This document shows, one piece after another, positions 11,729 through 27,313 of a stretch of 64,000 bases of DNA (position 1 is the first letter of the stretch; every line of letters begins with the position of its first letter). A program made the position numbers and the translations under genes. The DNA is from Flavobacterium pokkalii. GTDB lineage: Bacteria > Bacteroidota > Bacteroidia > Flavobacteriales > Flavobacteriaceae. The notes under the pieces are model-generated. The model worked only from the letters and a program-made list of their open reading frames with translations. It searched no databases and was not told where the DNA came from. The stretch is from positions 1 through 64,000 of the forward strand of contig NZ_NASZ01000024.1 in NCBI RefSeq assembly GCF_014596575.1, given 5' to 3'.

Positions 11729-11736
11729 TATATTTG
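11729..11736 (+). promoter_or_regulatory. -7 element TATATTTG of the PUL regulator; decides its start
   Basis: An exact TAnnTTTG match. Transcription would begin near 11741-11743, downstream of the first in-frame TTG (11734) and upstream of the second TTG at 11755. The element therefore supports initiation at 11755. Confidence 0.6.
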
Positions 11737-11754
11737 GGTATAAAACCATGTATT

Positions 11755-14499
11755 TTGAAAACAAGCCTACTTAAATTATTATTTCTGTTTTGTTTATCCT
11801 CATCATTTTATGCGCAGGAGTTGCTCCCTTTTGTAGAAAATTATACGAAATTAAATTACGAGGGAGACAATCAAACCTGGAATGTGGCTCAGGGAGAGGA
11901 TGACGCAATGTATTTTGCTAATAATCATTATTTGCTGAGATATGATGGGGTAAAATGGGAGAAAAATATGTTACCAAATAAAACTGTTATAAGATCCATT
12001 ATGGTGAAAGATAAAAGGATTTATTCGGGTTCATATAAAGAATTTGGTTACTGGGTAAGGAAAAATGCGAAAATGCATTACGTCTCTATTTCTAATAATA
12101 AACAGATTTTTAGTGACCGTGATAACGAAGAAATCTGGAAGATATTTGAATTTAATAACAAAATTTATTTCCAGTCATTTAATGCGCTTTTTCAATTTGA
12201 CGGCAAGAGAATAAAGAGTTTTAAATTTCCTTTTTTGGCTTCCTATTGTTTTGTGATTAATAATCAGTTGTTGGTGGCAGCAGTAGATAAAGGAATTTAT
12301 GAATTTAAGGATTCTCAGTTTGTTAAAATACAAAGGTGGTCGTTATTAGAGAATAATGTGATTCATTCGATTGAAAAGCATCAAAATAAGATTTATTTTT
12401 TCACGAAGAAAAAAGGGATTTATGTTGACGAAAATGGTGGTTTAACAGCCTGGAAATACCCGCTAAATGAAATTTTAAAAGGAGCCAGTATTAATGTTGC
12501 CAAGTTTATTAAAAATAACCGATTAGTAGTAGGAACAGCTAATAGAGGGGTTTATATTTTTGATTTAAATACTGGTTCTTATCGAAATATAAACAGGAAT
12601 AATGTATTGATGAACAGCTCAATTTTGAGCATAGCCTTAGATAAAGAGAACGATTTATGGCTAGGTTTAGACAATGGAATTGCTCATGTGGAAGTCAATT
12701 CTCCGGTGTCTATTTTTCATGATAATTCCGGGACTTTGGGTTCAGTATATTCTGTAGTTAAAACAGATAAAGGTTATTTAATGGCTTCTAATTATGGTGT
12801 TTTTAAATATGAAGGAGATGTTTTTTCTTTTATTCCTAATTCTCAGGGACAATCGTGGAATATCAGTAAAATTGATAATAAATATTTGATTGGACATGAC
12901 GAAGGTACTTTTGTTTACGAGAATGGCATTTTTTCTAAATTAAACGGTGTAAACGGAGGTTGGAATTTAATAAAAAGCAGTATTAATAATTCTTATTTAC
13001 AGGCGAGTTATAGCGGTGTTTATGTTTATGATGATTTGCAAAATTCAGATCATAAAGTGATGATTCCTGGGCTTTTAAAGCCTATTAAATATATCGCTCA
13101 AAACAGAAAAAATGAAATTTGGGCAGCAGATAATTATAGAGGTTTGTATCGGGTAGTTTATAATGATTCTTATGAACCTCTTAAAATTGAAAATATCACA
13201 CAGAAGAGTAAAATTACGAATGACTTTGGCGTCAAAATTTTTGAATTTAGAAACGAAATACTTTATCTGATTAATAATAGCTGGTACACTTATAATTCAA
13301 TTGCTGATAAATTGGTTAAAAATGAGTTTTTTAATACGCATTTTTTAAACGTTTCTGATATTGTTAAAATCGATGAAGATCATTTTGTGATACTTCAGGA
13401 TGGTTTACTGTATCAGGTTTACGCTAACGAAAATAAATTTGTAAAAAACCTTTTTCTGGAGAAATATTATAAAGGAAAAATTATCAACGGTAATTTAAAA
13501 ATTTTTGAATCCAATGGAAATTATTTATTAAATCTGGATGATGGTTTTGTTTCTTTTAAATTTAAAAGCAAAGCTAATTTAAATCCTCAGTTAAAAATTG
13601 AAGCTTTTGACAAAGGTGTTTATGTAGCTAATAATTCGAAGATACCATATAATTCAGAGTTAAGTATTAATGTAATTTCGGGTAAATATGGGGTCGAGAA
13701 GCCTAATATATTTTACAAACTTGATAAATCCGGTGGTTTTATTCCGGTTAAGGAAGGGAAAATTCTTTTGAATAATTTAGAAAGCGGTACTCATAATTTT
13801 GTAGCTTATAATTATAGTGGAAGTAATTATGATGAAGTTACTGCGTTTGATTTTGAGGTTGCAAAACCCTGGTATTTTTCTTTTTGGATGATTGTGGTTT
13901 ATCTATTAGTGATTGGGGCTGTTTTGTATTTGTATTATAAGTGGAATAAGATGCGTTATCTCCAAAAAATGAAATTGAGAGAAGAAGAATTGAAGCATCA
14001 GAAAAAAATCCTTGAAATGGAATTAAAGGCTGAAAACGAATTAAATATTCAGGAATATGAAAAACATATTTTAGAATTAGAAGTTTTGTCTAAATCTTCA
14101 GAGGTTGCCGGAAAATCTCTTTCGATTGCCAAACAAAGTGAAATGATTGAAAATATTCAACGCATTTTAGAAACAGAAAGAGATTTCAATAAGTTGAAAA
14201 GTGAAATTAAGAAAGTAATTAAAATAAATGAGGTTTATAAACACGAATGGGAAATTTTTGAAACTAATTTGAATCAAATTCATAATGAATTTATTACTAA
14301 ACTCTCCAAGAAATATCCGCATTTAACTTCAAAGGATATAAAATTGTGTGTTTATCTAAAAATGAACCTTTCTTCTAAGGAAATAGCTCCGTTAATGAAT
14401 ATTTCCTTTAGAGGTGTTGAATTGCACAGGTATCGTTTACGCAAAAAATTAAATTTGTCTCAGGATGATAATCTGTCTAATTTTTTATTAAGTATATAA
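11755..14499 (+). CDS. Membrane-spanning one-component regulator (propeller sensor, Y_Y_Y domain, LuxR-type HTH)
   Basis: About 914 residues from a TTG start at 11755. No in-frame ATG is available; this start gives a proper signal peptide (MKTSLLKLLFLFCLSSSFYAQ), and a -7 element overlaps the only earlier candidate, TTG 11734. Order of parts: signal peptide; about 600 periplasmic residues rich in the short repeats of two-component-regulator propellers (WNVAQGEDDAMYFANN, ENDLWLGLDNGIAHVE, RKNEIWAADNYRGLYRV); a Y_Y_Y-like domain; one transmembrane helix at about 708-730 (SFWMIVVYLLVIGAVLYLYY); a charged coiled coil; and a C-terminal LuxR-like helix-turn-helix (LTSKDIKLCVYLKMNLSSKEIAPLMNISFRGVELHRYRLRKKL). 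No histidine-kinase or receiver domain is present, so the signal must pass directly across the membrane. It precedes the susC operon on the same strand and is its probable regulator. Confidence 0.88.
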   Translation: MKTSLLKLLFLFCLSSSFYAQELLPFVENYTKLNYEGDNQTWNVAQGEDDAMYFANNHYLLRYDGVKWEKNMLPNKTVIRSIMVKDKRIYSGSYKEFGYWVRKNAKMHYVSISNNKQIFSDRDNEEIWKIFEFNNKIYFQSFNALFQFDGKRIKSFKFPFLASYCFVINNQLLVAAVDKGIYEFKDSQFVKIQRWSLLENNVIHSIEKHQNKIYFFTKKKGIYVDENGGLTAWKYPLNEILKGASINVAKFIKNNRLVVGTANRGVYIFDLNTGSYRNINRNNVLMNSSILSIALDKENDLWLGLDNGIAHVEVNSPVSIFHDNSGTLGSVYSVVKTDKGYLMASNYGVFKYEGDVFSFIPNSQGQSWNISKIDNKYLIGHDEGTFVYENGIFSKLNGVNGGWNLIKSSINNSYLQASYSGVYVYDDLQNSDHKVMIPGLLKPIKYIAQNRKNEIWAADNYRGLYRVVYNDSYEPLKIENITQKSKITNDFGVKIFEFRNEILYLINNSWYTYNSIADKLVKNEFFNTHFLNVSDIVKIDEDHFVILQDGLLYQVYANENKFVKNLFLEKYYKGKIINGNLKIFESNGNYLLNLDDGFVSFKFKSKANLNPQLKIEAFDKGVYVANNSKIPYNSELSINVISGKYGVEKPNIFYKLDKSGGFIPVKEGKILLNNLESGTHNFVAYNYSGSNYDEVTAFDFEVAKPWYFSFWMIVVYLLVIGAVLYLYYKWNKMRYLQKMKLREEELKHQKKILEMELKAENELNIQEYEKHILELEVLSKSSEVAGKSLSIAKQSEMIENIQRILETERDFNKLKSEIKKVIKINEVYKHEWEIFETNLNQIHNEFITKLSKKYPHLTSKDIKLCVYLKMNLSSKEIAPLMNISFRGVELHRYRLRKKLNLSQDDNLSNFLLSI

Positions 14500-14744
14500 A
14501 AATAAACTACTTTTTTTATACATTTTGTATTTTTCATAATCTTTTTTTGACTGATTACAGTACATCATTACTACATCATAACGATATGTTAAAGGATTTT
14601 TGGTTTGATGTTATATTGCTTGTTTTTAGTGTTTTATGTTTGTTTTTTGGTGTAATGATGTGGCTGTGTAGTAGTGTAATTTGATGTGTTCTACGGTTGT
14701 AATTGTTTAATTTGGCTCTACTAACTTTAACATTTATTAACCAT
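14500..14744. promoter_or_regulatory. susC upstream region with candidate operators
   Basis: 245 bp without a gene. Two 11-bp direct repeats, TACATCATTAC and TACATCATAAC, abut at 14561-14582. The complement GTAATGATGT occurs at 14652-14661, and a looser copy GTAATTTGATGTG at 14676-14688. A near-consensus -7 element TTAATTTG lies at 14707-14714 with TTG at 14681, 23 nt away. The repeat period is about one helical turn, as expected for a dimeric HTH regulator binding one face of the DNA. Confidence 0.5.
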
Positions 14745-17700
14745 ATGAAAAATTTAATTTTTAGCTTTTTAGCACTCCTATTGCTTCCGGCTTATATGTC
14801 CGGACAGGTACAGGCAATTAAAGGAAAAGTAGTTGACAGTAGTGGATTGGGACTTCCCGGAGCCAATGTTATTGCTGTCGAGTCTAAAACTTCTACTGTA
14901 ACAGATTTTGATGGGAACTTCACCATAAATGCTAAGGCGGGAGAAATTTTAAAAATTTCGATGATAGGTCTTGAAACAGCTTCTATACCAGCAACGAATA
15001 CACCAATGACAGTTACTTTAAAAGAAGCAGCAGATACTGTTTTAAAAGAGGTTGTGGTTATTGGGTATGGAACAGCCAAGAAAAGGGATTTAACAGGATC
15101 TATTGTTAAAGTAGAAGGCAAGCAAGTAGCGGATAAACCAAATGCGAATCCAGTCTCATCAATTCAGGGTAAAGTAGCAGGTTTGTCTGTTGTGAATACC
15201 GGTAAACCAGGAGAAGATCCTGATGTTAGAATTAGAGGTACAGTAAGTAGATACCAAACGAAACCATTATATGTGGTGGATGGGATTTTAAATGATAATA
15301 TCAGTTTTATCAATCCAAATGATATTGAATCGATGGAAGTTTTAAAAGATCCTTCTTCTCTGGCGATTTTTGGTGTTCGAGGTGCGAATGGTGTTATTAT
15401 CATTACTACCAAAAAAGCTAAAAGTGGTGTTACTACAGTAAATTTGAGTTCTTCCATAGGAATTAAAACGATACCTAATAAACCTTCAATGACTAATGCT
15501 TCTCAATTCAAAATGTTGTATGATGAGCAAAGAGTTAACGAAGGGGCTTCGCCTTATGCTTATTACGATAAATTTAGCGCCAATACAAATTGGGTAAATA
15601 TTATTGAAAATAATAGTGCTAATCAATTTATACATAATATAAGTATCTCTAACGGAACCGAAAAGAATAAATTTTATTTAGGTGCGGGTTATCATGCAGA
15701 AGAAGGTTTGATTGAAAATGAAAAATTTAAAAAATTCACTTTCAATATCAATGATGAAGTTCAAATTACTGATGGGATAAAAGTAGGGATTGGTTTTAAT
15801 GGATATGATGCCAGAATGCCTCAATTGCATGATTTTATATCTTCTTTGAATGCCACTCCAATTGTAGCTCCTTATAACAGCGAATTTGGATTGTACAATC
15901 AATTGCCCATTGAAATTGGTGGTGCTCAAATAGGGAATCCTTTAGCAAATGTTGAGGGGAAAAAATATACTCAGTTGAATAGAGATTCCAGATATGTTGG
16001 AAATGTTTTTGCTGAGTTTAAACTTTTTTCAGGTTTGAAATTCCGTGCAGCTTACTTAGCCGATTTAGGATACAGTAAAGGAAGAGGATATACTCCGGTA
16101 TTTAATATTTATGTAGGAGAAACAGGAGAAACAACATTGTATGCCGGAAATGCATTGACTAATGTAAACCAATTCAAAAGCGATACTCAAAAAACACAAC
16201 AAGACTATTTGTTTACTTATGAGAAGTCTTTTGGAAACCATAATTTGACTGCTTTAGCAGGTTATACCAGATATCAGGAAGGATACGAGTCTGTTAGTGG
16301 TACAGTAAAGCAATATGTAAATGGTGATCCAATACCTTATGACAAAAGATGGTGGTATCTAAATACTTATCCTTTTGGTGATCCAACGACACGTTTGTCA
16401 AATTCTGATCAATGGGACAGAGCCACCGTTTCTTATCTAGGTCGTGTTTTGTACAATTATGATGGAAAATATATTTTGAATGCTTCTTTTAGACGTGATG
16501 GTTCTTCGGAAATTAGTGAAGCAAACAGATTTCAGAATTTTTGGTCAGTAGGTGCTGCCTGGGATGTAACCAAAGAGAAATTCATGGAAAATCAAACGAT
16601 TTTTGATCAACTTAAAGTGAAAGGCTCTTATGGTATTTTAGGGAATCAATATTCAGGAGTTCATTATCCGTCACAACCTAATTATACTACGGGTTCTTCG
16701 GCCGTTTTTGGGGAATCCTTAGTGCCGGCTTATGTTTTAGCCTATAGAAATAATCCAAATTTAGAGTGGGAAACAGTGACCTCTTATGAAGCAGGATTTG
16801 AATTATCAACCTTAAAAAACAGGTTGAAATTTGAAACAACCTATTATAATAAAACCACTGATAACTTATTGACATTTGTAGATTTGGGAAGTGAAAAATT
16901 TTATACCAACGCAGGAGAAATTTCGAATAAAGGATTTGAGTTTTCTGGTTCCTGGAACGATAAGATAAATGATGATTTTACTTATTCTGTTAGCGGAAAT
17001 TTAGCAACACTTAAGAATAAAGTAAAATCAGTTTATATTGATGGTTTTGAAGTGTTTGACGGACCATCTATTTTAACCGCAGGTGCTCCGATTGGTTCTT
17101 TTTACGGCTATAAAGTAGAAGGCGTTTATCAATCTTATGCCGATATTATAGCTTCTGCTCCCAGTACTCTTGGGAACTATGCACCGGGAGATTTAAAATT
17201 CAAAGATGTAAATGGTGATGGACAGATTACTACAGATGACAGAACTATTATTGGTAACCCAAGTCCTGATTTTACTTATGGATTTTCAGGAAATATTACC
17301 TATAAAAATTTTAGTTTTTCTATAGATTTTCAAGGAGTTTATGGGAATGAAATTTATAGAGACTGGGGTAATGGATCCACTTTTGCTAAATTCAATTACA
17401 GAACAGCTCGATTAGACAGATGGAATGGAGCAGGTACTTCGAATTGGGAACCAAGACTTAATGACGGATCAGGATATAATAAACTGAATTCAACTTATAT
17501 GATTGAAGATGGCAGTTATTTAAGACTAAGAAATATTCAACTGGGATATAATTTTGATGCTCAATTATTAAAAAGAATAAACATTCAAGGATTAAGAGTT
17601 TATGTTAATGCACAGAACTTGGTAACATGGGCTAATAATTCCGGTTTTACACCAGAAGCAGGTGGAACACCAACCTCTTTTGGTAGAGATACAGGAGGAT

Positions 17701-17747
17701 ATCCAATCCCGACAATCATGACATTAGGATTGAATGTGACTTTTTAA
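14745..17747 (+). CDS. SusC/RagA family TonB-dependent outer-membrane transporter
   Basis: A 1000-residue TonB-linked outer-membrane receptor that imports oligosaccharides with its SusD partner. It has a signal peptide (MKNLIFSFLALLLLPAYMSGQ), a carboxypeptidase-D-like regulatory domain (about 22-100: IKGKVVDSSGLGLPGANVIAV), a plug domain with the SusC signature (VVVIGYGTAKKRDLTGSI, LYVVDGILNDNISFINPNDIESMEVLKD, GVRGANGVIIITTK), and a 22-strand barrel region to the C-terminus. A TTG at 14703 is in frame, but the ATG at 14745 begins a clean signal peptide, so I chose it. First gene of the PUL operon; susD follows 18 bp downstream. The specificity cannot be read from this protein alone. Confidence 0.97.
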   Translation: MKNLIFSFLALLLLPAYMSGQVQAIKGKVVDSSGLGLPGANVIAVESKTSTVTDFDGNFTINAKAGEILKISMIGLETASIPATNTPMTVTLKEAADTVLKEVVVIGYGTAKKRDLTGSIVKVEGKQVADKPNANPVSSIQGKVAGLSVVNTGKPGEDPDVRIRGTVSRYQTKPLYVVDGILNDNISFINPNDIESMEVLKDPSSLAIFGVRGANGVIIITTKKAKSGVTTVNLSSSIGIKTIPNKPSMTNASQFKMLYDEQRVNEGASPYAYYDKFSANTNWVNIIENNSANQFIHNISISNGTEKNKFYLGAGYHAEEGLIENEKFKKFTFNINDEVQITDGIKVGIGFNGYDARMPQLHDFISSLNATPIVAPYNSEFGLYNQLPIEIGGAQIGNPLANVEGKKYTQLNRDSRYVGNVFAEFKLFSGLKFRAAYLADLGYSKGRGYTPVFNIYVGETGETTLYAGNALTNVNQFKSDTQKTQQDYLFTYEKSFGNHNLTALAGYTRYQEGYESVSGTVKQYVNGDPIPYDKRWWYLNTYPFGDPTTRLSNSDQWDRATVSYLGRVLYNYDGKYILNASFRRDGSSEISEANRFQNFWSVGAAWDVTKEKFMENQTIFDQLKVKGSYGILGNQYSGVHYPSQPNYTTGSSAVFGESLVPAYVLAYRNNPNLEWETVTSYEAGFELSTLKNRLKFETTYYNKTTDNLLTFVDLGSEKFYTNAGEISNKGFEFSGSWNDKINDDFTYSVSGNLATLKNKVKSVYIDGFEVFDGPSILTAGAPIGSFYGYKVEGVYQSYADIIASAPSTLGNYAPGDLKFKDVNGDGQITTDDRTIIGNPSPDFTYGFSGNITYKNFSFSIDFQGVYGNEIYRDWGNGSTFAKFNYRTARLDRWNGAGTSNWEPRLNDGSGYNKLNSTYMIEDGSYLRLRNIQLGYNFDAQLLKRINIQGLRVYVNAQNLVTWANNSGFTPEAGGTPTSFGRDTGGYPIPTIMTLGLNVTF

Positions 17748-17765
17748 AATTTAAAATAAAGAAAA

Positions 17766-19241
17766 ATGAAAAATTATAAATATATCATCAAATTATCACT
17801 TTTTGCTTTGTTAGCAGTAACAGTTTTAAATTCATGTAATGATGATGAATTTTTAGACAGAAAGCCATTAGGAACTGCAACAGAAGGTGATTTAACAGCA
17901 GGAGGATACGAAGAAAAAGCATTTGGTTTATATGGAAAAATCAGAACTCAGGAAGGAGTAACTAATTGGGACAGATATTGGTTTCAAAGTATTCGTTCTG
18001 ATGACGCTCAAAAAGGAAGTACAGCAACGGATGCTGCAACCAGAGGGAATGTTATGGATAAGTTTCAATATTCTCCGGCAGAGTTTGCTGCTTATTGGGA
18101 CGGACATTATAGTTTGATTTTTGCCTGTAACGATTTAATTGTAGATATTGATGAATCTGGTTTAACAGATGAGGGAACGATGATTAATAAAGCTGAAGCT
18201 ATGGCAATCAGAGGATTTGCCTTTTTTGATTTGCGCAGAGATTATGGTGAAGTACCAATTATTTTAAAGAAAATTGTTGTTCCAAGTGATGGTATTAAGG
18301 CCAAATCGACTGTTGCAGAAGTTGATGCTCAAATTATTAGTGATTTAGAATTTGCTGCTTCCAAGTTACCGGATAGTTGGCCAGCTTATCCGGGGAGAGC
18401 CACCAAAGGCTTTGCGAATGCTCTATTGGCAAAATTATATTTATATCAGGGTAATTGGACTAAATCTTTAGAAAAAAGTGAATTAGTTATTAATTCTGAA
18501 CAATATGTATTGGATAACTCCTATGTTACCTTATTTTCTGAAACGGGTGATAATTCAAAAGAATCCATTTTTGAAGTACAATTTGTAAGAATTGCAGGGG
18601 TTAATTATTCTAACAATTATTGGGAATCTCAAGGGGTACGTGGCTCAAGTACCTGGGATTTAGGTTGGGGATTTAATGTTCCAACTCAAAATTTAGTGGA
18701 TGCTTATGAAGCTGGTGATCCTCGAAAAGAAGCTACAATCCTTTTTTCTGGGCAAAATGATGGTTTTGGTTTAACTGTTCCGAACAGTCCACCATTAGAT
18801 CAACCCTATTGGAACAAAAAAGCTTATACAACTCCTAGTATCAGACAGAGTTACGGAGAAAATAAAAATCATTGGAAAAATATTAAAATTTTAAGATATG
18901 CCGATGTAATATTAATGGCTGCTGAAGCGGCAAATGAATCAGGAAACGCAACCAAAGCATCCGATTATTTAGAAATGATTAGAGCCAGGGCAAGAGGTAC
19001 AAGTGCTGTTTTACCTAAAGTAACAGATTTGAGCCAGACGGGTTTAAGAACAGCTATAAAGCACGAAAGAAGAATTGAACTTGCCATGGAAAATGAACGA
19101 TTTTATGATTTGGTAAGATGGGGTGATGCTCCGGCAGTTTTAGGTGGTTTGGGATATCAGGCTAAAAACCAATATTATCCAATTCCGCAAACTGCTATTG
19201 ATCAATCTGGAGGGATATTAGTTCAAAATCCTAATTACTAA
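17766..19241 (+). CDS. SusD/RagB family nutrient-binding lipoprotein
   Basis: A 491-residue surface lipoprotein that forms the lid of the SusC transporter and binds incoming glycans. The lipoprotein signal peptide has a lipobox ending LNSC (Cys25), followed by the acidic stretch NDDE that favours surface export in Bacteroidota. The TPR-rich SusD fold is recognisable from RGFAFFDLRRDYGEVPII, KGFANALLAKLYLYQGNW, ILRYADVILMAAEAANESG and the C-terminal signature HERRIELAMENERFYDLVRWG. It pairs with the susC gene immediately upstream and is translated from the same transcript. Confidence 0.97.
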   Translation: MKNYKYIIKLSLFALLAVTVLNSCNDDEFLDRKPLGTATEGDLTAGGYEEKAFGLYGKIRTQEGVTNWDRYWFQSIRSDDAQKGSTATDAATRGNVMDKFQYSPAEFAAYWDGHYSLIFACNDLIVDIDESGLTDEGTMINKAEAMAIRGFAFFDLRRDYGEVPIILKKIVVPSDGIKAKSTVAEVDAQIISDLEFAASKLPDSWPAYPGRATKGFANALLAKLYLYQGNWTKSLEKSELVINSEQYVLDNSYVTLFSETGDNSKESIFEVQFVRIAGVNYSNNYWESQGVRGSSTWDLGWGFNVPTQNLVDAYEAGDPRKEATILFSGQNDGFGLTVPNSPPLDQPYWNKKAYTTPSIRQSYGENKNHWKNIKILRYADVILMAAEAANESGNATKASDYLEMIRARARGTSAVLPKVTDLSQTGLRTAIKHERRIELAMENERFYDLVRWGDAPAVLGGLGYQAKNQYYPIPQTAIDQSGGILVQNPNY

Positions 19242-19258
19242 TTTTTAAAGTTAAAATC

Positions 19259-20035
19259 ATGAATATTAATAAATCAATTATAAAGAGAAACTTTGGGATA
19301 CTGCTTATTTCATTAGCATTTATGGGATGTCAGGATATGGAAAGACCGGAATTAGGAGATTATCCAACTGACGTGGGCAATTATACGCCTCTGGATGGAG
19401 AAACCCTTTTTGCAGAGTTTAATAATACATATTATCTTAATTCTATAAACGGAGCTCCTGCTACTAAAGTTGGAAATTCCAGTTTAGGAGATCCCAAAGT
19501 AGGAGAGTACTCTTTTATGGGAGCTACAGATTCTTATATAACCTATCCGGTGAAAGGCTTGTTTGGAACTAATGAGTTAACAGTTGCATTTTGGTATAAA
19601 GTGAATGCAGCGCCTGATAGATCAGGATTAGTCGTAGTTGGAAATCCTTCAATTACGGGAGATGACGGACGAAAATATGGTTTTCGTTTGTTCAGAGAAG
19701 GAAACGGATCTTCTCAAACCATAAAATTGAATGCCGGTATTGGAACGGGTGAATCATGGAATGATGGAGGAGTATTAACTGTAGATAATAATTGGGTTTA
19801 TATTACACTTACTATTTCTGCAACCGAATCTAAAATTTATTTCAACGGCGTTCTTCAAAGAACAAGTTCATTCTCCAGTCCGTTAAATTTTACAGGATGT
19901 GTAGATTTTCTAATTGGTTCCGGTGGGCCTACTTTTTCTTATTGGGGACATAAGTCGGATAATAGTTTGTATGATGAAATAAAAGTTTTTAATAAAGTTC
20001 TTACTCAAACTGAAATAGTCAGTCTGATGAATTAA
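19259..20035 (+). CDS. LamG/concanavalin A-like surface lipoprotein, candidate glycan-binding protein
   Basis: A 258-residue lipoprotein (lipobox AFMGC, Cys23, then QDMERPE). After a short linker, residues about 80-255 form a LamG-like jelly roll: FWYKVNAAPDRSGLVVVGNP, WVYITLTISATESKIYFNGVLQ and LYDEIKVFNKVLTQTEI, the last being the usual C-terminal strand of LamG_3 domains. Non-catalytic lipoproteins directly after susD commonly act as surface glycan-binding proteins (SusE/F-like position). No catalytic residues are evident. I infer a carbohydrate-binding role from position and fold; the ligand is unproven. Confidence 0.8.
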   Translation: MNINKSIIKRNFGILLISLAFMGCQDMERPELGDYPTDVGNYTPLDGETLFAEFNNTYYLNSINGAPATKVGNSSLGDPKVGEYSFMGATDSYITYPVKGLFGTNELTVAFWYKVNAAPDRSGLVVVGNPSITGDDGRKYGFRLFREGNGSSQTIKLNAGIGTGESWNDGGVLTVDNNWVYITLTISATESKIYFNGVLQRTSSFSSPLNFTGCVDFLIGSGGPTFSYWGHKSDNSLYDEIKVFNKVLTQTEIVSLMN

Positions 20036-20128
20036 TACTTTTTTAATAGAAAATTATATACATCTGGGTATAAATTAATATCCGGATGTATTTTTCTATC
20101 TCTTTAATTATCACATAAGTAAAAAAAA

Positions 20129-21514
20129 ATGAAAAGCAGTTTATATATAATTCTTTTTTTGAGTGTTTTTGGAGCCTGCTCTTCTTCTTCACCAGAGAAG
20201 ACGAAGAATGAGGAAACAACAACTCCAATAAATCCTGTAAATCCATTAACTGATACCGAAGCATTGGACCTAGTTCAAAAGGATGCAATTAAGTATTTTT
20301 GGGATTATGCAGATGCAAATTCTAAATTAGCCAGAGAAAGATATATCATTGGCGATCCCGGTTTTGAAGCAAATATTATTACCACTGGCGGTTCCGGATT
20401 TGGATTGATGAGTATCATTGTTGGGGTAGAAAGAGGTTTTTTACCACGAGCCGAAGCCATTTCCAGATTAGCAACAGCTTTAAATTTTCTTGAAAAAGCC
20501 GATCGTTTTTATGGTGCATGGCCACATTGGATGGACAATAAAGACGGAAAAGTAATTCCTTTTGGCACTAAAGATAATGGAGGAGATTTAGTGGAAACTT
20601 CTTTTGTTTGCCAGGCTTTGATTACCATTAGAGAGTATTTTAAAGATGGAAATGCAGCTGAAAGAGATTTAGCCGCCAAGGCTGACGAACTTTGGAGAGG
20701 AGTAGAATGGGATTGGTACACCAAAGGCGAGGATGCTCTTTACTGGCATTGGTCTCCTAATTACGGTTGGGAAATGAATTTTAAGCTGGAAGGGTATAAT
20801 GAATGTTTGATTACTTATATCATGGCAGCTTCTTCCCCTACACATCCTATTTCAGCTGATGCTTATCATAAAGGCTGGGCCAGAAGCGGTGCTATTGTAA
20901 ATGGCGGTTATCAATACGGAATCCCCGTCATTTTTAATTATAATGGAGCTACCGGAAATGTAGGACCAATGTTTTGGTCGCATTACTCTTATTTGGGGCT
21001 AGATCCAAACGGTTTGAAAGATAAATATGCAGATTATGGTGTTTTGACCCAAAATCATGCTAAAATTATGATTCAGTACAGTATTGCAAATCCACATAAC
21101 TGGAAAGATTATTCAGATAAATGTTGGGGACTGACTGCCAGTTATACCCGAAATGCCGACGGAACAACGGGCTATACTGCACATCAGCCGAATAATGACA
21201 CCGGAGTAATTTCGCCCACAGCGGCTTTGTCATCATTTCCTTTTGCACCGGTTGAAGCTATGAAATTTTTACATTATCTGTACGATGAACATAAAGCACA
21301 ATATGTTGGTATTGCAGGTCCTTATGACGCTTTTTCTCCTCAGTATAATTGGGTAACACCTCGTTATCTGGCAATTGATCAGGGAACAATTGCTCCAATG
21401 ATTGAAAATTATCGAACAGGATTGTTATGGAAATTATTTATGAATGCAATAGAAGTTAAACAAGGTTTAAGCAAGTTAGATTTTGAATCCGGTAAATACA
21501 ATTTGACCCCATAA
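20129..21514 (+). CDS. Glycoside hydrolase family 144-type endo-beta-1,2-glucanase, lipoprotein
   Basis: A 461-residue lipoprotein (lipobox VFGAC, then a serine-rich and charged linker) with a full 'glycoamylase' (PF10091) alpha/alpha-toroid. Characteristic segments are GGSGFGLMSIIVGVERGF, TSFVCQALITIREYF, WSPNYGWEMNFKLEGYNECLITYIMAAS, GPMFWSHYSYLGLDP, DTGVISPTAALSSFPFAPVEAM and AIDQGTIAPMIENYRTGLLWKLFM. The family's founding characterised enzymes, from Chitinophaga, are endo-beta-1,2-glucanases. A surface location fits initial cleavage of a polymer before SusCD import. The substrate call rests on family assignment by eye; GH162 enzymes and other toroid hydrolases are possible alternatives. 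Confidence 0.8.
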   Translation: MKSSLYIILFLSVFGACSSSSPEKTKNEETTTPINPVNPLTDTEALDLVQKDAIKYFWDYADANSKLARERYIIGDPGFEANIITTGGSGFGLMSIIVGVERGFLPRAEAISRLATALNFLEKADRFYGAWPHWMDNKDGKVIPFGTKDNGGDLVETSFVCQALITIREYFKDGNAAERDLAAKADELWRGVEWDWYTKGEDALYWHWSPNYGWEMNFKLEGYNECLITYIMAASSPTHPISADAYHKGWARSGAIVNGGYQYGIPVIFNYNGATGNVGPMFWSHYSYLGLDPNGLKDKYADYGVLTQNHAKIMIQYSIANPHNWKDYSDKCWGLTASYTRNADGTTGYTAHQPNNDTGVISPTAALSSFPFAPVEAMKFLHYLYDEHKAQYVGIAGPYDAFSPQYNWVTPRYLAIDQGTIAPMIENYRTGLLWKLFMNAIEVKQGLSKLDFESGKYNLTP

Positions 21515-21525
21515 ATATCCTTAAT

Positions 21526-22224
21526 ATGAAAAAACACAGTTATTTATTTTTTATCATTTTTACCCATTTTGCCTTTGCTCAAATTCAAACAAAAGGCACA
21601 TTTAAAACAGAAATCATTCAAAAAAAGGAATTGAATTATGCTTTATATGTACCTAAAGAAGTCAAAGAAAATAAACCGTTGATTGTTTTTCTTCACGGTT
21701 CGGGAGAAAAAGGAACTGATATTGAAAAAGTAAAAGTCCACGGGCCATTTAAATATTTAAAAAATAATTCAATTGATGCTTATGTTTTGGCGCCTCAGTG
21801 TCCGGAAAATGAATATTGGAATTCGGAGGTATTATATCATTTGATTTTAAAAATTCAAAAAGAGAATAAAATTGATTCTCATCGAATTTATTTAACTGGA
21901 CTCAGTATGGGGGCTTGGGGAGCCTGGAATTTAGCTTTTGCCCATCCTGAAATGTTTGCCGCTTTGGTGCCCATTGCAGGTTTTGTTGATCGAATTCCAA
22001 TGATTGAAAATTGTAAATTAAAAGATATTCCGATTCAGATTTTTCATGGTTTATTAGACGATGTGGTAGATGTCAATTATTCGATTTCAATTTATAAAAA
22101 GCTTCAAAAATGTAATTCTAATATTCAATTGACCATTTTTGATGATGCCAACCACGACAGTTGGACCAGAGTTTATGATGCTTCTGAGATTTACGAATGG
22201 ATGTTAAAACAAAAAATTAAATAA
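21526..22224 (+). CDS. Secreted alpha/beta-hydrolase (carboxylesterase-like)
   Basis: A 232-residue alpha/beta-hydrolase with a signal peptide (MKKHSYLFFIIFTHFAFAQ). The oxyanion motif is LHGSGEKG, the nucleophile elbow GLSMG (Ser127), the acid probably an Asp in HGLLDDVVD, and the base His in DDANHDSW. The layout resembles the feruloyl/acetyl esterase and phospholipase/carboxylesterase relatives often found in PULs. It lies 11 bp after the GH144 gene and 1 bp before the GH3 gene, so it is part of the operon. A deacylating role (for instance removal of succinyl or acetyl groups) is inference. The family also contains peptidases. Confidence 0.82.
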   Translation: MKKHSYLFFIIFTHFAFAQIQTKGTFKTEIIQKKELNYALYVPKEVKENKPLIVFLHGSGEKGTDIEKVKVHGPFKYLKNNSIDAYVLAPQCPENEYWNSEVLYHLILKIQKENKIDSHRIYLTGLSMGAWGAWNLAFAHPEMFAALVPIAGFVDRIPMIENCKLKDIPIQIFHGLLDDVVDVNYSISIYKKLQKCNSNIQLTIFDDANHDSWTRVYDASEIYEWMLKQKIK

Positions 22225-22225
22225 A

Positions 22226-24502
22226 ATGAGAAACAAAATAACATTATTCTTTTTAGTATGTTCTTTTTTCTGCTTTGGACAAAAAATTAAACCTAAAGCC
22301 GAATTTGTTAATGACTTAATGTCAAAAATGACTTTGGATGAAAAAATAGGTCAGCTTAATTTACCCACTTCAGGAGATATTACAACCGGTCAGGCAAACA
22401 GTTCTGATATTGCTAAAAATATTGCTGAAGGAAAAGTAGGCGGTTTGTTTAATATCAAATCGGTAGAGAAAATTAAGGAAGTACAGCGAATTGCCTTAGA
22501 GAAAAGCAGATTGAAAATTCCACTTCTTTTTGGAATGGATGTTATTCATGGTTACGAAACAACTTTTCCTATTCCATTGGGCTTATCGTGTACCTGGGAT
22601 ATGAAATTAATAGAAAAAAGTGCTCAAATTGCCGCTCAGGAAGCGAGTGCTGACGGTATCAACTGGACATTTTCACCTATGGTTGATATTTCCCGTGATC
22701 CGCGTTGGGGAAGAATTTCTGAAGGATCCGGAGAAGACCCTTATTTAGGAAGTCAGGTGGCTAAAGCTATGGTTAATGGCTATCAGCAAAATGATTTGTC
22801 TAAAAATAATACTCTTATGGCCTGCGTAAAACATTTTGCTCTATACGGTGCTCCGGATGGAGGTAGAGATTATAATACGGTTGATATGAGCAGAATCAAA
22901 ATGTACAATGATTATTTTCCGCCTTACAAAGCTGCTGTTGATGCTGGTGTAGGTTCGGTGATGGCATCGTTTAATGAAGTAGATGGGATTCCTGCTACTG
23001 GAAACAAATGGTTGATGACAGATGTTTTAAGAAAGCAATGGGGTTTTAAAGGTTTTGTAGTTACTGATTATACCGGAATTCCCGAAATGATCGCCCACGG
23101 AATGGGAGATTTACAAACTGTTTCTGCTTTAGCCTTGAATGCTGGAATTGAAATGGATATGGTAGGAGAAGGATTTTTAACGACGTTGAAAAAATCTTTG
23201 GCAGAAAATAAAGTGACTTTGGCACAAATTGATAATGCGGTACGACTTATTTTGGAAGCCAAATATGACTTAGGATTATTCCAGAATCCATATAAATATT
23301 GTGATGTAAAAAGAGCTAAAACGGAGGTTTACACCATGGCAAACAGAACAGAAGCCCGTAAAATTTCGGCTCAATCTCTGGTTTTATTAAAAAATATGAA
23401 TCAAATTTTACCATTAAAAAAATCAGCAACTGTGGCTATTATTGGTCCTTTGGCGGATGCCAAAGAAAATATGGCGGGAACCTGGAGTGTGGCTACTAAT
23501 ATGGATAAATCGATTTCATTAATTGCAGGAATTAAAGAAGTAGTAGGTAATAATGCAAAAGTTCTTTATGCCAAAGGAAGTAATTTAGATTATGATGCCG
23601 TTTTTGAAGAGAAAGCGACAATGTTTGGCAAAACCCTTCACAGAGATAACAGAACCCAAGAAGAATTAACTAACGAAGCGTTAAAAGTCGCTAATCAGGC
23701 CGATGTAATTATTGCTGCTTTAGGAGAATCGGCGGAGATGAGCGGGGAAAGTAGCAGTAGAACTAATCTTGAAATTCCACAGGCGCAAAAAGATTTATTA
23801 CAGGAATTACTAAAAACAGGCAAGCCGGTTGTGTTGGTTTTATTTACCGGAAGACCTTTGGTATTGGTTCAGGAAAATAAAACGGTACCGGCCATTTTAA
23901 ATGCCTGGTTTGCTGGAAGTGAAGCTGGTTATGCCATTGCGGATGTTTTATACGGAAATGAAAATCCATCGGGAAAATTAACGACTAGCTTTCCAAGAAG
24001 CGTTGGTCAGGTGCCTATTTATTACAATCAAAAAAATACAGGAAGACCTTTGATGAATAAGGAAGGCAAATTTGAAAAATTCAGGTCTAATTATATAGAT
24101 GAAAGAAATGAGCCTTTATATCCATTTGGGTATGGATTGAGCTATACTAATTTTGATTATTCAAATCTGAAAATTTCATCTGATAAAATGAATTTTGACG
24201 GAAAATTAAAAGTAAGTATTGATGTTGCTAATACAGGGAATTATGACGGAAAAGAAATAGTGCAATTGTATATTAGAGATTTAGTAGGTTCTGTAACAAG
24301 ACCGTTAAAAGAATTAAAAGGATTCCAAAAAATATTCCTTAAAAAAGGGGAGGCGAAAACAGTGAGTTTTGAGGTTTCAGTTGAAGATTTAAAATTCTAT
24401 AATTCTGATTTACAATTTGTAGCCGAACCGGGACAGTTTGAAGTTTTTGTTGGAAAAGATTCTGCTGTAGAAAATAAAGTAAGTTTCGAGTTAGTTAAAT
24501 AG
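22226..24502 (+). CDS. bglX: GH3 beta-glucosidase (BglX-like)
   Basis: A 758-residue glycoside hydrolase family 3 enzyme with signal peptide (ending CFG-Q), predicted periplasmic. The N-terminal TIM barrel contains LLFGMDVIHGYETTFPIPLGLS, WTFSPMVDISRDPRWGRISEGSGEDPYLGS, VKHFALYGAPDGGRDYN and the nucleophile Asp281 in VVTDYTGIPEM. The alpha/beta sandwich has GESAEMSGESSSRTNLEIP, and a fibronectin-like C-terminal domain follows (PLYPFGYGLSYTNFDYSN...FEVFVGKD). It would release terminal glucose from imported oligosaccharides. A GH3 enzyme from a Bacteroides beta-1,2-glucan locus prefers sophorose-type linkages, which agrees with the GH144 neighbour. The linkage preference here is inference. Confidence 0.93.
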   Translation: MRNKITLFFLVCSFFCFGQKIKPKAEFVNDLMSKMTLDEKIGQLNLPTSGDITTGQANSSDIAKNIAEGKVGGLFNIKSVEKIKEVQRIALEKSRLKIPLLFGMDVIHGYETTFPIPLGLSCTWDMKLIEKSAQIAAQEASADGINWTFSPMVDISRDPRWGRISEGSGEDPYLGSQVAKAMVNGYQQNDLSKNNTLMACVKHFALYGAPDGGRDYNTVDMSRIKMYNDYFPPYKAAVDAGVGSVMASFNEVDGIPATGNKWLMTDVLRKQWGFKGFVVTDYTGIPEMIAHGMGDLQTVSALALNAGIEMDMVGEGFLTTLKKSLAENKVTLAQIDNAVRLILEAKYDLGLFQNPYKYCDVKRAKTEVYTMANRTEARKISAQSLVLLKNMNQILPLKKSATVAIIGPLADAKENMAGTWSVATNMDKSISLIAGIKEVVGNNAKVLYAKGSNLDYDAVFEEKATMFGKTLHRDNRTQEELTNEALKVANQADVIIAALGESAEMSGESSSRTNLEIPQAQKDLLQELLKTGKPVVLVLFTGRPLVLVQENKTVPAILNAWFAGSEAGYAIADVLYGNENPSGKLTTSFPRSVGQVPIYYNQKNTGRPLMNKEGKFEKFRSNYIDERNEPLYPFGYGLSYTNFDYSNLKISSDKMNFDGKLKVSIDVANTGNYDGKEIVQLYIRDLVGSVTRPLKELKGFQKIFLKKGEAKTVSFEVSVEDLKFYNSDLQFVAEPGQFEVFVGKDSAVENKVSFELVK

Positions 24503-24520
24503 TTGGTTTATTAATTGGTT

Positions 24521-24548
24521 AAAAGCTCTTCTTTTGAAGGGCTTTTTT
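24521..24548 (+). terminator. Hairpin terminator inside the PUL, after bglX
   Basis: Stem AAAAGCTCTTC (24521-24531) pairs with GAAGGGCTTTT (24536-24546) through a four-base loop, followed by T residues. It lies 18 bp past the GH3 stop and before the phosphodiesterase gene, so it may end or attenuate the main operon. It also argues that the phosphodiesterase reading frame starts downstream of it. Confidence 0.75.
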
Positions 24549-24571
24549 CTCCCAAAGAGAGAAGTATTAGT

Positions 24572-25360
24572 ATGATGATTTTTTTGAGAAAAGCGGTTTA
24601 CAGTGTTATTCTTTTGTTGTTTTTACTTATTTCCTCCTGTGGTGTGAAAATGAATGCTGTTGTGGCGCATCGCGGAGCGTGGAAAAAAAATAATTTACCC
24701 GAAAATTCAATTGCTGCTTTAAGACGTGCCATCGATTTAAAACTCGCAGGCTCTGAATTTGATGTCTGGAGAACAGCCGATGATTCGCTGGTTATTAATC
24801 ACGATGCTCATTATAACAAATTGCTTATTGAGGAAACCAATTATGCCAGTTTAATAAAATTTAAACTGGCTAACGGAGAGCAATTACCTACTTTTAACGA
24901 ATATATCAAAGAAGGGAAAAGAAGTAATAAAAACACTCTTTTAGTATGCGAAATAAAACCTTCCACGATTAGCAAGGAAAGAGGGAAAATGACCGCTCTA
25001 AAAGTGGTTGAAACCATTAAAAAACTCAAAGCTGAAAAAATTACAGTTTACATTAGTTTTGATTATGATATTTTAAAACAAATCAGAAGTGTGGACACCA
25101 AAGCTTCTTTGCAATATTTAGAAGGAAATAAATCACCTAAAGAAGTCAAAGCTGACCAAATTAATGGCATTGATTATCATTATTCAGTTTTTAAAAAACA
25201 TCCGGAATGGATTAAAGAAGCTAAAGAAAATAATATTATTCTAAATGTCTGGACGGTAAACGATACGGTTGAGATGAATTGGATAATAGCCCATCAATTC
25301 AATTTTATTACTACTAATGAGCCGGAGTTATTAATTGAAAGGCTACAATCGGAAAAATAA
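24572..25360 (+). CDS. Glycerophosphodiester phosphodiesterase family lipoprotein
   Basis: About 262 residues from ATG 24572; the frame is open upstream, but those codons cross a terminator hairpin. The lipobox is LISSC (Cys23), so the enzyme is membrane-anchored. The GDPD catalytic core is complete: AHRGAWKKNNLPENS (HR and EN), GSEFDVW (E-x-D metal ligands), INHD (second His), KPST in the barrel, and the C-terminal WTVND...TTNEPELL. Family members hydrolyse glycerophosphodiesters to glycerol phosphate and an alcohol. In this locus it might strip phosphoglycerol from decorated glucans or act on phospholipid head groups. The first is the interesting but unproven option. Confidence 0.88.
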   Translation: MMIFLRKAVYSVILLLFLLISSCGVKMNAVVAHRGAWKKNNLPENSIAALRRAIDLKLAGSEFDVWRTADDSLVINHDAHYNKLLIEETNYASLIKFKLANGEQLPTFNEYIKEGKRSNKNTLLVCEIKPSTISKERGKMTALKVVETIKKLKAEKITVYISFDYDILKQIRSVDTKASLQYLEGNKSPKEVKADQINGIDYHYSVFKKHPEWIKEAKENNIILNVWTVNDTVEMNWIIAHQFNFITTNEPELLIERLQSEK

Positions 25361-25381
25361 TTTTTTTAAAATTATACTAAC

Positions 25382-27313
25382 ATGAAAAAAAACGAGAAAC
25401 TATTTTCCTTAGTTGTTTTATTTTTTTTGTTGTTTGGTGTCAATAATATTTTGGCGCAGCAAACAGTAAATTCGAACAAAACTGAGTGGTTTGATCCCGA
25501 AAAACCGGCAACAACTTTTTGTAATCCAATAAACATTGGTTACAATTATACGACTTATAATCATAATGGAATTCCGGTTTCGCGGCGTTCCAGTGCCGAT
25601 CCGGTTATCATTACCTATAAAGGCGAATATTATTTATTTGCGACTAATCAGGCAGGATTTTTTTGGAGTAAAGATATGTCCGATTGGAATTTTGTTTACG
25701 GAAGTTTTCAAAGACAACCCGGCGATGACGACCAGTGTGCTCCGGCAGCCTGGGTGGTAAATGATACTTTGTTTTATGTGGGTTCTACCTGGAAACGAGA
25801 CCATCCTATCTGGAAAACGGCTAATCCAAAATCCGGAAGATGGACTCGTCATGTAAATCAGGCGATGTTGCCCACATGGGATCCCGCTATTTTTCAGGAT
25901 GATGATAAAAAAGTGTATATGTATTATGGTTCCAGTGGAAAATTACCTTTGGTAGGTGTTGAGGTTGATTACAAAACCTGGTTACCAAAAGGGAATCAGG
26001 CAGATTATGCAAAATTATACGAAGCAACAGAGGTTGAGGATATTCAGCATCCGTATGGAGAGGCTAAGGTGGTCGTTGGTTTAGATCCTTCGCAACATGG
26101 ATGGGAGCGTTTTGGACCTAATAATGATATGGAACCCGCGCCTTGGGGAAATTTTATAGAAGGAGCCTGGATGACTAAGCATAATGGTAAATATTACATG
26201 CAATATGGTGCTCCGGCAACGGAATTTAAAGGTTATGCAAACGGCGTTCATGTTGGTAATCATCCTCTTGGCCCTTTTGTTTATCAAAAACATAATCCGA
26301 TGTCATATAAACCGGGCGGATTTGTAATAGGAGCGGGACACGGAAATACTTTCGCTGATAATTACGGAAATTATTGGAATACAGGAACCTGTAAAATTTC
26401 CATTAAAGATCGTTTTGAACGTCGTATTGATATGTTTCCTGCCGGATTTGATAAAGATGATGTCATGTATTCTATTACCGCTTATGGTGATTTTCCAATT
26501 GTGTTGCCTACAAGTCAGCGTAATCAGACTAGCGGAGCGTCTTCAGGCTGGATGTTACTTTCTTATAAAAAACCGGTAAGCGTTTCTTCTTTTGAAGAAT
26601 GTATGGAAGTTGAAACTAACAGAATGGATAATGGCGAAAAAAAAGTATTCGAGAGATTTTGTTACAATTCTGAAAATTTAACCGACGAAAATATTCAAAC
26701 GTATTGGTCGGCTAAAACGGCTAGCCCTGGTGAATGGCTTCAAATAGATTTAGGACGACCAATGGAAATCAACGCTTTACAAATTAATTATGCCGATCAT
26801 AAAGCCACGCAATACAATAAAGCGATGGATATTTATTATCAGTATAAAATTTACATGTCAGATGACGTTCAAAATTGGACTTTGGTGGTGGATAAATCAA
26901 AAAATGATAAAGATGTACCTCATGATTATGTAGAATTAAGCAAACCATTTAAAGCACGTTTTATAAAAATGCTTAATGTTCATAATGCTTCCGGACTGTT
27001 TGCTATTTCTGATTTCAGGGTTTTTGGAAATGGTTTGGCAAATAAGCCAAAAGCTGTTTCTTCGTTTAAGGTTGACCGAAATCAATTAGATTCCAGGAAT
27101 GCAATGATTTCTTGGAAAAAACAAAATGATGCTGTTGGTTATACAATTTATTATGGAATTGCTCCGGATAAATTATATAATAATATTATGGTTTATGGAG
27201 ATAATTCGTATGATTTTAGAGGTTTAGATAAAGGAACGACTTATTATTTTACTATTGAAGCTTTTAATGAAAATGGTATTGGTAAAAAAAATAAAATCAT
27301 TGTAGTTAAATAA
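25382..27313 (+). CDS. GH43 family glycoside hydrolase with F5/8C and Fn3 domains
   Basis: A 643-residue exported protein (signal peptide ending LAQQ). The N-terminal five-bladed propeller of family 43 spans about 45-380 with candidate catalytic residues Asp73 (SADPVIITYKGEYYLF), an Asp in TWDPAIFQDDDKKVYMYYG and Glu260 (IEGAWMTKHNGKYYMQYG). A discoidin F5/8 type C module follows at about 415-550 (TYWSAKTASPGEWLQIDLGRPMEINALQINY, RFIKMLNVHN), then a fibronectin III module to the end. GH43 usually covers arabinofuranosidases, xylosidases and galactan- or galactofuranose-active enzymes, so it does not obviously match a pure beta-1,2-glucan target. It is the last gene of the PUL and converges with a histidine kinase gene. 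Confidence 0.88.
   Translation: MKKNEKLFSLVVLFFLLFGVNNILAQQTVNSNKTEWFDPEKPATTFCNPINIGYNYTTYNHNGIPVSRRSSADPVIITYKGEYYLFATNQAGFFWSKDMSDWNFVYGSFQRQPGDDDQCAPAAWVVNDTLFYVGSTWKRDHPIWKTANPKSGRWTRHVNQAMLPTWDPAIFQDDDKKVYMYYGSSGKLPLVGVEVDYKTWLPKGNQADYAKLYEATEVEDIQHPYGEAKVVVGLDPSQHGWERFGPNNDMEPAPWGNFIEGAWMTKHNGKYYMQYGAPATEFKGYANGVHVGNHPLGPFVYQKHNPMSYKPGGFVIGAGHGNTFADNYGNYWNTGTCKISIKDRFERRIDMFPAGFDKDDVMYSITAYGDFPIVLPTSQRNQTSGASSGWMLLSYKKPVSVSSFEECMEVETNRMDNGEKKVFERFCYNSENLTDENIQTYWSAKTASPGEWLQIDLGRPMEINALQINYADHKATQYNKAMDIYYQYKIYMSDDVQNWTLVVDKSKNDKDVPHDYVELSKPFKARFIKMLNVHNASGLFAISDFRVFGNGLANKPKAVSSFKVDRNQLDSRNAMISWKKQNDAVGYTIYYGIAPDKLYNNIMVYGDNSYDFRGLDKGTTYYFTIEAFNENGIGKKNKIIVVK

Follow-up and report, generated by a model that had tools for sequence, protein, structure and literature searches.

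Analysis of a 64,000-nucleotide stretch of Flavobacterium pokkalii DNA (contig NZ_NASZ01000024.1, assembly GCF_014596575.1; hereafter the window) showed a polysaccharide utilisation locus (PUL) of nine genes, all on the + strand, at positions 11734-27313. The gene inventory given in the original prediction, an earlier reading of the same DNA from its letters, was borne out by the open reading frames (ORFs) together with Pfam and NCBIfam profile searches, and the domains matched those named there. The regulator ORF started at 11734 (TTG), upstream of the 11755 previously given. As in a Sus-type PUL, SusC and SusD genes were adjacent and accompanied by degradative enzymes and a regulator. The genome contained one PF10091 gene and two GDPD genes. 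The features of the locus are as follows:

11734..14499, + strand: membrane-spanning regulator with a Reg_prop beta-propeller, one likely transmembrane segment and a LuxR-type helix-turn-helix (Pfam; transmembrane segment judged from the translation)
14703..17747, + strand: SusC-type TonB-dependent transporter (TIGR04056, 832 bits)
17766..19241, + strand: SusD-type surface lipoprotein (Pfam; lipobox, then CNDDEFLD)
19259..20035, + strand: LamG-like lipoprotein, probable surface glycan-binding protein (PF13385; lipobox CQDMERPE)
20058..20091, + strand: terminator-like hairpin in the LamG/GH144 interval (hairpin scan)
20129..21514, + strand: GH144 endo-beta-1,2-glucanase homologue, lipoprotein (PF10091; 5gzh/5gzk)
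21526..22224, + strand: alpha/beta-hydrolase esterase, probable deacylase (PF02230; esterase 3doh, E 3.4e-31)
22226..24502, + strand: GH3 beta-glucosidase (Pfam; solved relatives; above the NCBIfam BglX cut-off)
24521..24546, + strand: terminator-like hairpin with a T-run, after GH3 (scan by our own rule)
24572..25360, + strand: GDPD-family phosphodiesterase lipoprotein (PF03009; solved relatives; start-site check)
25382..27313, + strand: GH43 enzyme with F5/8C (CBM32-like) and fn3 domains (Pfam; D73, D167 and E260 in place)

The protein encoded at 20129 aligned over nearly its full length (residues 17-455, E about 3.5e-151 to 5gzh/5gzk) with CpSGL of Chitinophaga pinensis, the founding GH144 enzyme, and matched PF10091 with an E-value of 1e-73; the next solved matches were 3eu8, 4qt9, 4gl3, 5z06 and 8xul. 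The acidic residues D135, D139, E142 and E211 of CpSGL and the clan residues F268 and Y330 are named as important in a portion of PMC12102758, and in the alignment, with the letters checked, they corresponded to D149, D153, E156, E225, F282 and Y349 of the 20129 protein. On this similarity and the key acidic residues kept, the 20129 protein belongs with GH144, as had been predicted; CpSGL is an endo-beta-1,2-glucanase, and it is by sequence that the window protein is likened to it. For the GH3 protein, the solved relatives 3u48 (best) and 5xxl, which we take to be BT_3567, were close. A B. thetaiotaomicron beta-glucosidase favours beta-1,2-gluco-oligosaccharides and beta-1,2-glucan, according to a section of the review PMC11842490. 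PULs with GH144, aimed at beta-1,2-glucans, are described among the abundant PULs in a part of PMC6499787, so that the PUL type is a known one; these Bacteroidetes loci share GH144 and, very probably, the beta-1,2-glucan target with the present locus, sulfatase is added in the marine forms, and GDPD, present here, is unmentioned in that part of the paper. The GH144 with its catalytic residues, the fitting GH3 and the conserved gene order make the predicted beta-1,2-glucan PUL well supported, and it very probably serves to consume beta-1,2-glucans that other bacteria produce. GH97 (two loci) and GH27 (one locus) genes were seen inside other GH144 operons, which raises the question whether some beta-1,2-glucans bear alpha-linked sugars. 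In nine GH144 runs outside Flavobacterium there was a GDSL hydrolase some 223 residues long, perhaps a second deacylase, whose family was assigned by Pfam in one of them only (L156).

The GDPD ORF opened at a TTG (24515), right behind which lay the hairpin stem of 24521-24546, and its likely start is the ATG at 24572 or 24575. The PF03009 match scored 82.9 bits against a curated cut-off of 23.6, and the motifs HRG, ENS, EFDV, NHD and CEIK, whose conserved residues presumably have metal-binding and acid/base roles, aligned with those of 2pz0 and were invariant in 24 Flavobacterium copies. The loop after the second histidine was about 10 residues shorter than that of 2pz0 in the alignment, which may open the active site. 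Residues just behind the lipobox cysteine bear on lipoprotein placement. A simple rule found a lipobox in 70 of 81 GDPD copies, and 53 of those 70 lacked acidic residues directly after it, in contrast to SusD and LamG, a pattern that fits a periplasm-facing lipoprotein. By the same rule no lipobox was present in any of 73 esterases, in 70 of 80 GH3 proteins or in 71 of 81 GH43 proteins; the rule flags a cysteine in the window GH3, so the location of this protein is less sure. A few GDPD copies (L083, L066, G222 and G511) had a shortened reading frame or one in-frame stop, through either decay or sequencing error.

A search with the GDPD gave 154 relatives, and gene order was compared in the best 80 of them; these came from records labelled Flavobacterium, Flavobacteriaceae bacterium or [Flexibacter], and the conclusions therefore hold for close kin only. 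GH144, GH3, GDPD and GH43 stood in that order in 79 of the 80 loci, where SusC also recurred, and the block of genes proposed in the original prediction was thereby found in other genomes; the 80th locus (L012) was a 6.6-kb contig without other PUL genes. An arrangement that recurs in 79 of 80 loci is far from chance. The esterase was also present in 71 of the 79. One of the loci (L009) belongs to F. johnsoniae strain CI04. A survey of 299 Flavobacterium genomes (GH144 match, E up to 1e-100) showed GH144 in 134 and a GDPD of the window's kind in 70. GDPDs with at least 70% identity numbered 51, of which 50 sat 3.2-4.6 kb from GH144, and the 51st came from a 62% complete assembly with no GH144 match. 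A wider set of 395 sampled Bacteroidota genomes included 136 with PF10091 and 47 with the GDPD. Operon counts kept only GH144 runs with a recognised SusC (63 of 84; two of the seven runs with EEP phosphoesterases, L161 and L200, were among those dropped). GDPD was found in 9 of 18 such operons in Flavobacterium and in 1 of 45 elsewhere, the lone case (G150) having SusC, SusD, LamG, GH144, GDPD and GH27 in a row. GDPD presence changed at least five times on the GH3 tree, a quick tree with long branches. The GDPD is intact and optional.

Phosphoesterases near GH144 were compared with those near other SusD genes of the same genomes, with one GH144 place per genome (67) set against the best 150 SusD matches by coordinates, a non-random set that was trimmed by the 22 members lying within 15 kb of a GH144 gene. 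A GDPD lay within 10 kb of 10 of 67 GH144 genes vs 1 of 128 other SusD genes, and an EEP within 10 kb of 8 of 67 vs 0 of 128, with p-values of about 1e-4 that overstate the case since Fisher's test ignores kinship. Outside Flavobacterium, EEP was near GH144 in 6 of 49 vs 0 of 76 near other SusD genes. No GH144 run held EEP and GDPD together, and some of the eight EEP cases (G122 and G273) were near GH144 but outside its operon run. A smaller sequence-level control showed GDPD or EEP in 0 of 20 other SusD loci (two short, at least eight alike), a set too small to weigh. EEP as a stand-in for GDPD in Flavobacterium was considered and set aside as weak: it was near GH144 (10 kb) in 4 of 80 GDPD-negative genomes (G084, G458, G524 and G558), with a further EEP at 10.7 kb in the GDPD-negative G468, and in 0 of 50 GDPD-positive genomes, while an EEP relative anywhere in the genome was found in 62 of 80 and 45 of 50, respectively; four low-completeness genomes (G548, G606, G628 and G632) were omitted from this count. 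The motif C-x-P-S-R is that of sulfatases. It was present in all eight sulfatases (8/8) at GH144 clusters that were considered as phosphodiesterases, which were rejected as such; one of them (L143) also matched a phosphoric/sulfuric ester hydrolase model, below cut-off.

The two closest GDPD relatives outside Flavobacterium (67% and 62% identity) were 523 and 513 residues long and were among eight GDPD-GH16 fusions of 501-525 residues (L084, L085, L087, L090, L091, L092, L094 and L096), in which GH16 was confirmed by Pfam for L084 and recognised by the EIDIME motif in the other seven. The motifs HRG, EFDV, HD and EIK were kept in 8/8 fusions, and the glutamate of PENS was changed to glutamine or lysine in 4/8. 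SusC lay within the 20-kb locus in 5/8, an EEP phosphoesterase directly behind 4/8 (L084, L087, L090 and L092), GH30 near L084 and L085, and GH3 near L084 and L087. A GDPD or GDPD-GH16 gene followed by an EEP gene was seen in those four loci and in L097, G453 and G614 (the last two by coordinates), and this pairing was not tied to GH144. Unfused relatives exist, such as a lone GDPD beside a lone GH16 (L088), and many more distant relatives had neither SusCD nor GH16 nearby. Among solved structures, the window GDPD was closest to the first 236 residues of 7ww4/7wwc from Pedobacter terrae, a GDPD-GH16 architecture; that protein is named a beta-1,3(4)-glucanase and is twice as long, whereas the GDPD of the window is unfused and lies in a GH144 locus. 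The structures were obtained with laminarin and have no associated publication, as stated in a portion of PMC12448869.

A tree of 48 GDPD domains placed the Flavobacterium GH144-locus copies and L012 in one clade (100/100), nested in a group of 17 rows that included five GH16 fusions and, at 94/97, narrowly missed the star given by the tool. The G150 GDPD grouped with L089 elsewhere in the tree, and a single clade of all GH144-linked GDPDs was rejected (p-AU 0.008). By this tree, GH144-linked GDPDs have at least two origins, and the GDPD was most likely borrowed from GDPD-GH16 loci.

The GH43 protein matched PF04616, and D73, D167 and E260, presumably the catalytic Asp/Asp/Glu residues, were invariant in 24 sequences; its solved relatives were only weak. 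Among GH144 operons with SusC, GH43 was present in 16/18 from Flavobacterium and 14/45 from other genera. Predicted structure models were poor, with a mean pLDDT of 65.0 for the GDPD and 53.2 for GH43. A search for solved relatives of the LamG-like lipoprotein gave none. SusC versions were diverse compared with that of the window (above 70% identity in 5 of 79 loci, 31-36% in 74), with GH3 at 80-98%, and the SusC/SusD transporter pair looks to have been swapped as a cassette.

From SusC onward the gaps between ORFs were 1-93 bases, the regulator-SusC gap was 203 bases, and GH3 and GDPD were 69 bases apart if the GDPD starts at 24572. A hairpin with a T-run stood directly 3' of GH3 in 80/80 GDPD-bearing loci (79 relatives and the window) and in 8/9 GDPD-negative Flavobacterium loci. 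The rule was devised by us after the hairpin had been spotted by eye and is passed by 10/400 shuffles, and the window hairpin at 24521-24546 was absent from the list of the stock scan. Elsewhere in the GDPD-bearing set, the rule was passed after SusC in 2/80, SusD in 7/80, LamG in 11/29, GH144 in 0/80, the esterase in 0/72, GDPD in 0/81 and GH43 in 52/79. With a terminator-like hairpin after GH3, GDPD and GH43 seem to form a second tier, transcribed by read-through or from an unseen promoter; through read-through, their expression is probably lower than that of the core enzymes. As a probable in-operon terminator, the post-GH3 hairpin may tier expression. The hairpin at 20058..20091 is weak taken alone, there being 8 such sites in the scanned region vs 9.3 expected by chance. 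HSP70, CorA, phosphate acetyltransferase and acetate kinase genes lay upstream of the PUL on the same strand, and the next four genes downstream were on the opposite strand.

The interpretation that we favour, with a probability of about 0.58, is that this Sus-type PUL serves to take up osmoregulated periplasmic or cyclic beta-1,2-glucans from other bacteria, with the esterase and the GDPD stripping their decorations and the GDPD as an optional module. Surface SusD and LamG proteins would bind the glucan, the lipid-anchored GH144 would cut it, and SusC would import the decorated oligosaccharides; in the periplasm the esterase would remove acyl groups, probably such as succinyl, and the GDPD phosphodiester groups, probably such as phosphoglycerol, before GH3 finishes the oligosaccharides to glucose. 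We infer what the natural substrate is, which groups are removed, in what order the steps run and in which cell compartments. Succinate, phosphoglycerol and phosphoethanolamine occur as substituents of natural beta-1,2-glucans, according to part of PMC11842490. Removal of phosphodiester decorations by the GDPD is plausible, and the best that we can infer, given its tight linkage to GH144 in Flavobacterium, the GDPD-GH16 fusions, the two GDPD origins and the phosphoesterase excess near GH144; removal of decorations by the esterase is likewise plausible. The stripping role proposed for both enzymes in the original prediction is in keeping with these points and is weakened by the absence of the GDPD from most equivalent loci; phosphoglycerol, the target it named, fits the data but is narrower than they are, as phosphoethanolamine or phosphocholine fit equally.

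Several observations weigh against this interpretation. Of the 134 Flavobacterium genomes with GH144, 84 had no such GDPD at the locus, and 44 of 45 GH144 operons of other genera were likewise without it, so the core pathway can do without this enzyme; the original prediction had held that such absence from equivalent loci would refute it, and this was largely what was found. The GDPD excess near GH144 vanished outside Flavobacterium (1/49 vs 1/76), leaving a GDPD signal of one genus and one case beside an EEP signal that is broader but thinner, EEP being found in only 5/63 GH144 operons. The GH3 protein also scored above the cut-off of the NCBIfam model for BglX, a general beta-glucosidase, so GH3 alone cannot fix the linkage. 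To our knowledge, GH43 has no known job on such glucans. The phosphoglycerol of osmoregulated periplasmic glucans is sn-1 and classical GDPDs cut sn-3 diesters, which is a stereochemical problem for the proposed step.

Much of the same evidence was weighed for an ordinary beta-1,2-glucan PUL in which the GDPD is a passenger that scavenges phosphorus from glycerophosphodiesters of lipid origin, in the manner of the phosphate utilisation systems found in plant-associated Flavobacterium. Such systems, with SusCD-like pairs and phosphodiesterases as in the present locus, are known in F. johnsoniae from part of PMC8115612, and the GDPD is optional and sits with GH43 behind a terminator-like hairpin. 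The low-phosphate phosphodiesterases described in that part of the paper are of other families, however, its main text contains 'glycerophosph' once, in a reference, and 'GDPD' not at all, and phosphate utilisation systems are by definition without CAZy enzymes, whereas this locus holds GH144, GH3 and GH43. Since 50 of the 51 close GDPDs sit at GH144 and some relatives are fused to GH16, a passenger GDPD is considered unlikely, although it is the main alternative. The variable content of the loci bears on another explanation, that the target is a different beta-1,2-linked glucoside, e.g. a glycan of plants or algae containing sophorose units and bearing side sugars, with GH43 and the esterase as debranching enzymes and the GDPD as secondary: GH43 was kept in most Flavobacterium operons and fewer others, and GH97 and GH27 in GH144 operons suggest that side chains may vary, but the nearest relative of the GH144 is a true endo-beta-1,2-glucanase and the GH43 has only weak solved relatives, so this target appears improbable. 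Least probable, and by our estimate very much so, is a GDPD domain that has ceased to be a phosphodiesterase and that aids the glucanase as a TIM barrel repurposed for glycan binding or some other task; the fusions to GH16, the loss of about ten loop residues against 2pz0 and the altered PENS glutamate in half of the fusions point that way, and the motifs kept in every fusion and invariant in the Flavobacterium copies argue against it.

Bradyrhizobium and Azospirillum have phosphocholine-bearing beta-1,3/1,6 cyclic glucans, which fits the GDPD-GH16 loci. A wider reading can be offered tentatively, and we would sooner doubt than accept it: a mobile, phosphodiester-removing GDPD module would serve bacterial periplasmic-glucan PULs generally, fused to GH16 or next to it in loci that may include GH30, GH3 and EEP, and recruited at least twice into GH144 loci to deal with beta-1,2-glucans that carry phosphoglycerol; Bacteroidota would in this way scavenge decorated glucans from rhizosphere Proteobacteria, and on land the GDPD would take the place of the sulfatase of marine GH144 loci. 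No description of a GDPD-bearing GH144 PUL or of a phosphoglycerol-stripping PUL was found by targeted searches of open-licence papers or among the 15 top-ranked papers of each broader search, and absence from such a collection is weak evidence. An IR1 locus with a GDPD on its map, shown in part of PMC9131120, was considered as the same locus and rejected, as it holds GH65, GH97 and GH13 instead.

The PUL is of a known kind and carries an accessory that is uncommon and was recruited at least twice, and the decoration step makes a good, testable hypothesis. If it is true, the GDPD would be an enzyme candidate for stripping phosphodiester decorations off bacterial glucans during PUL feeding, and could open decorated glucans to scavenging. 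Where a PUL contains a GDPD, which is readily taken for a lipid enzyme and overlooked, it may then be a glycan-decoration enzyme that can be assayed directly. Rhizosphere Flavobacterium would also be linked to periplasmic glucans from Rhizobiales and other Proteobacteria, and these glucans are important in symbiosis and virulence.

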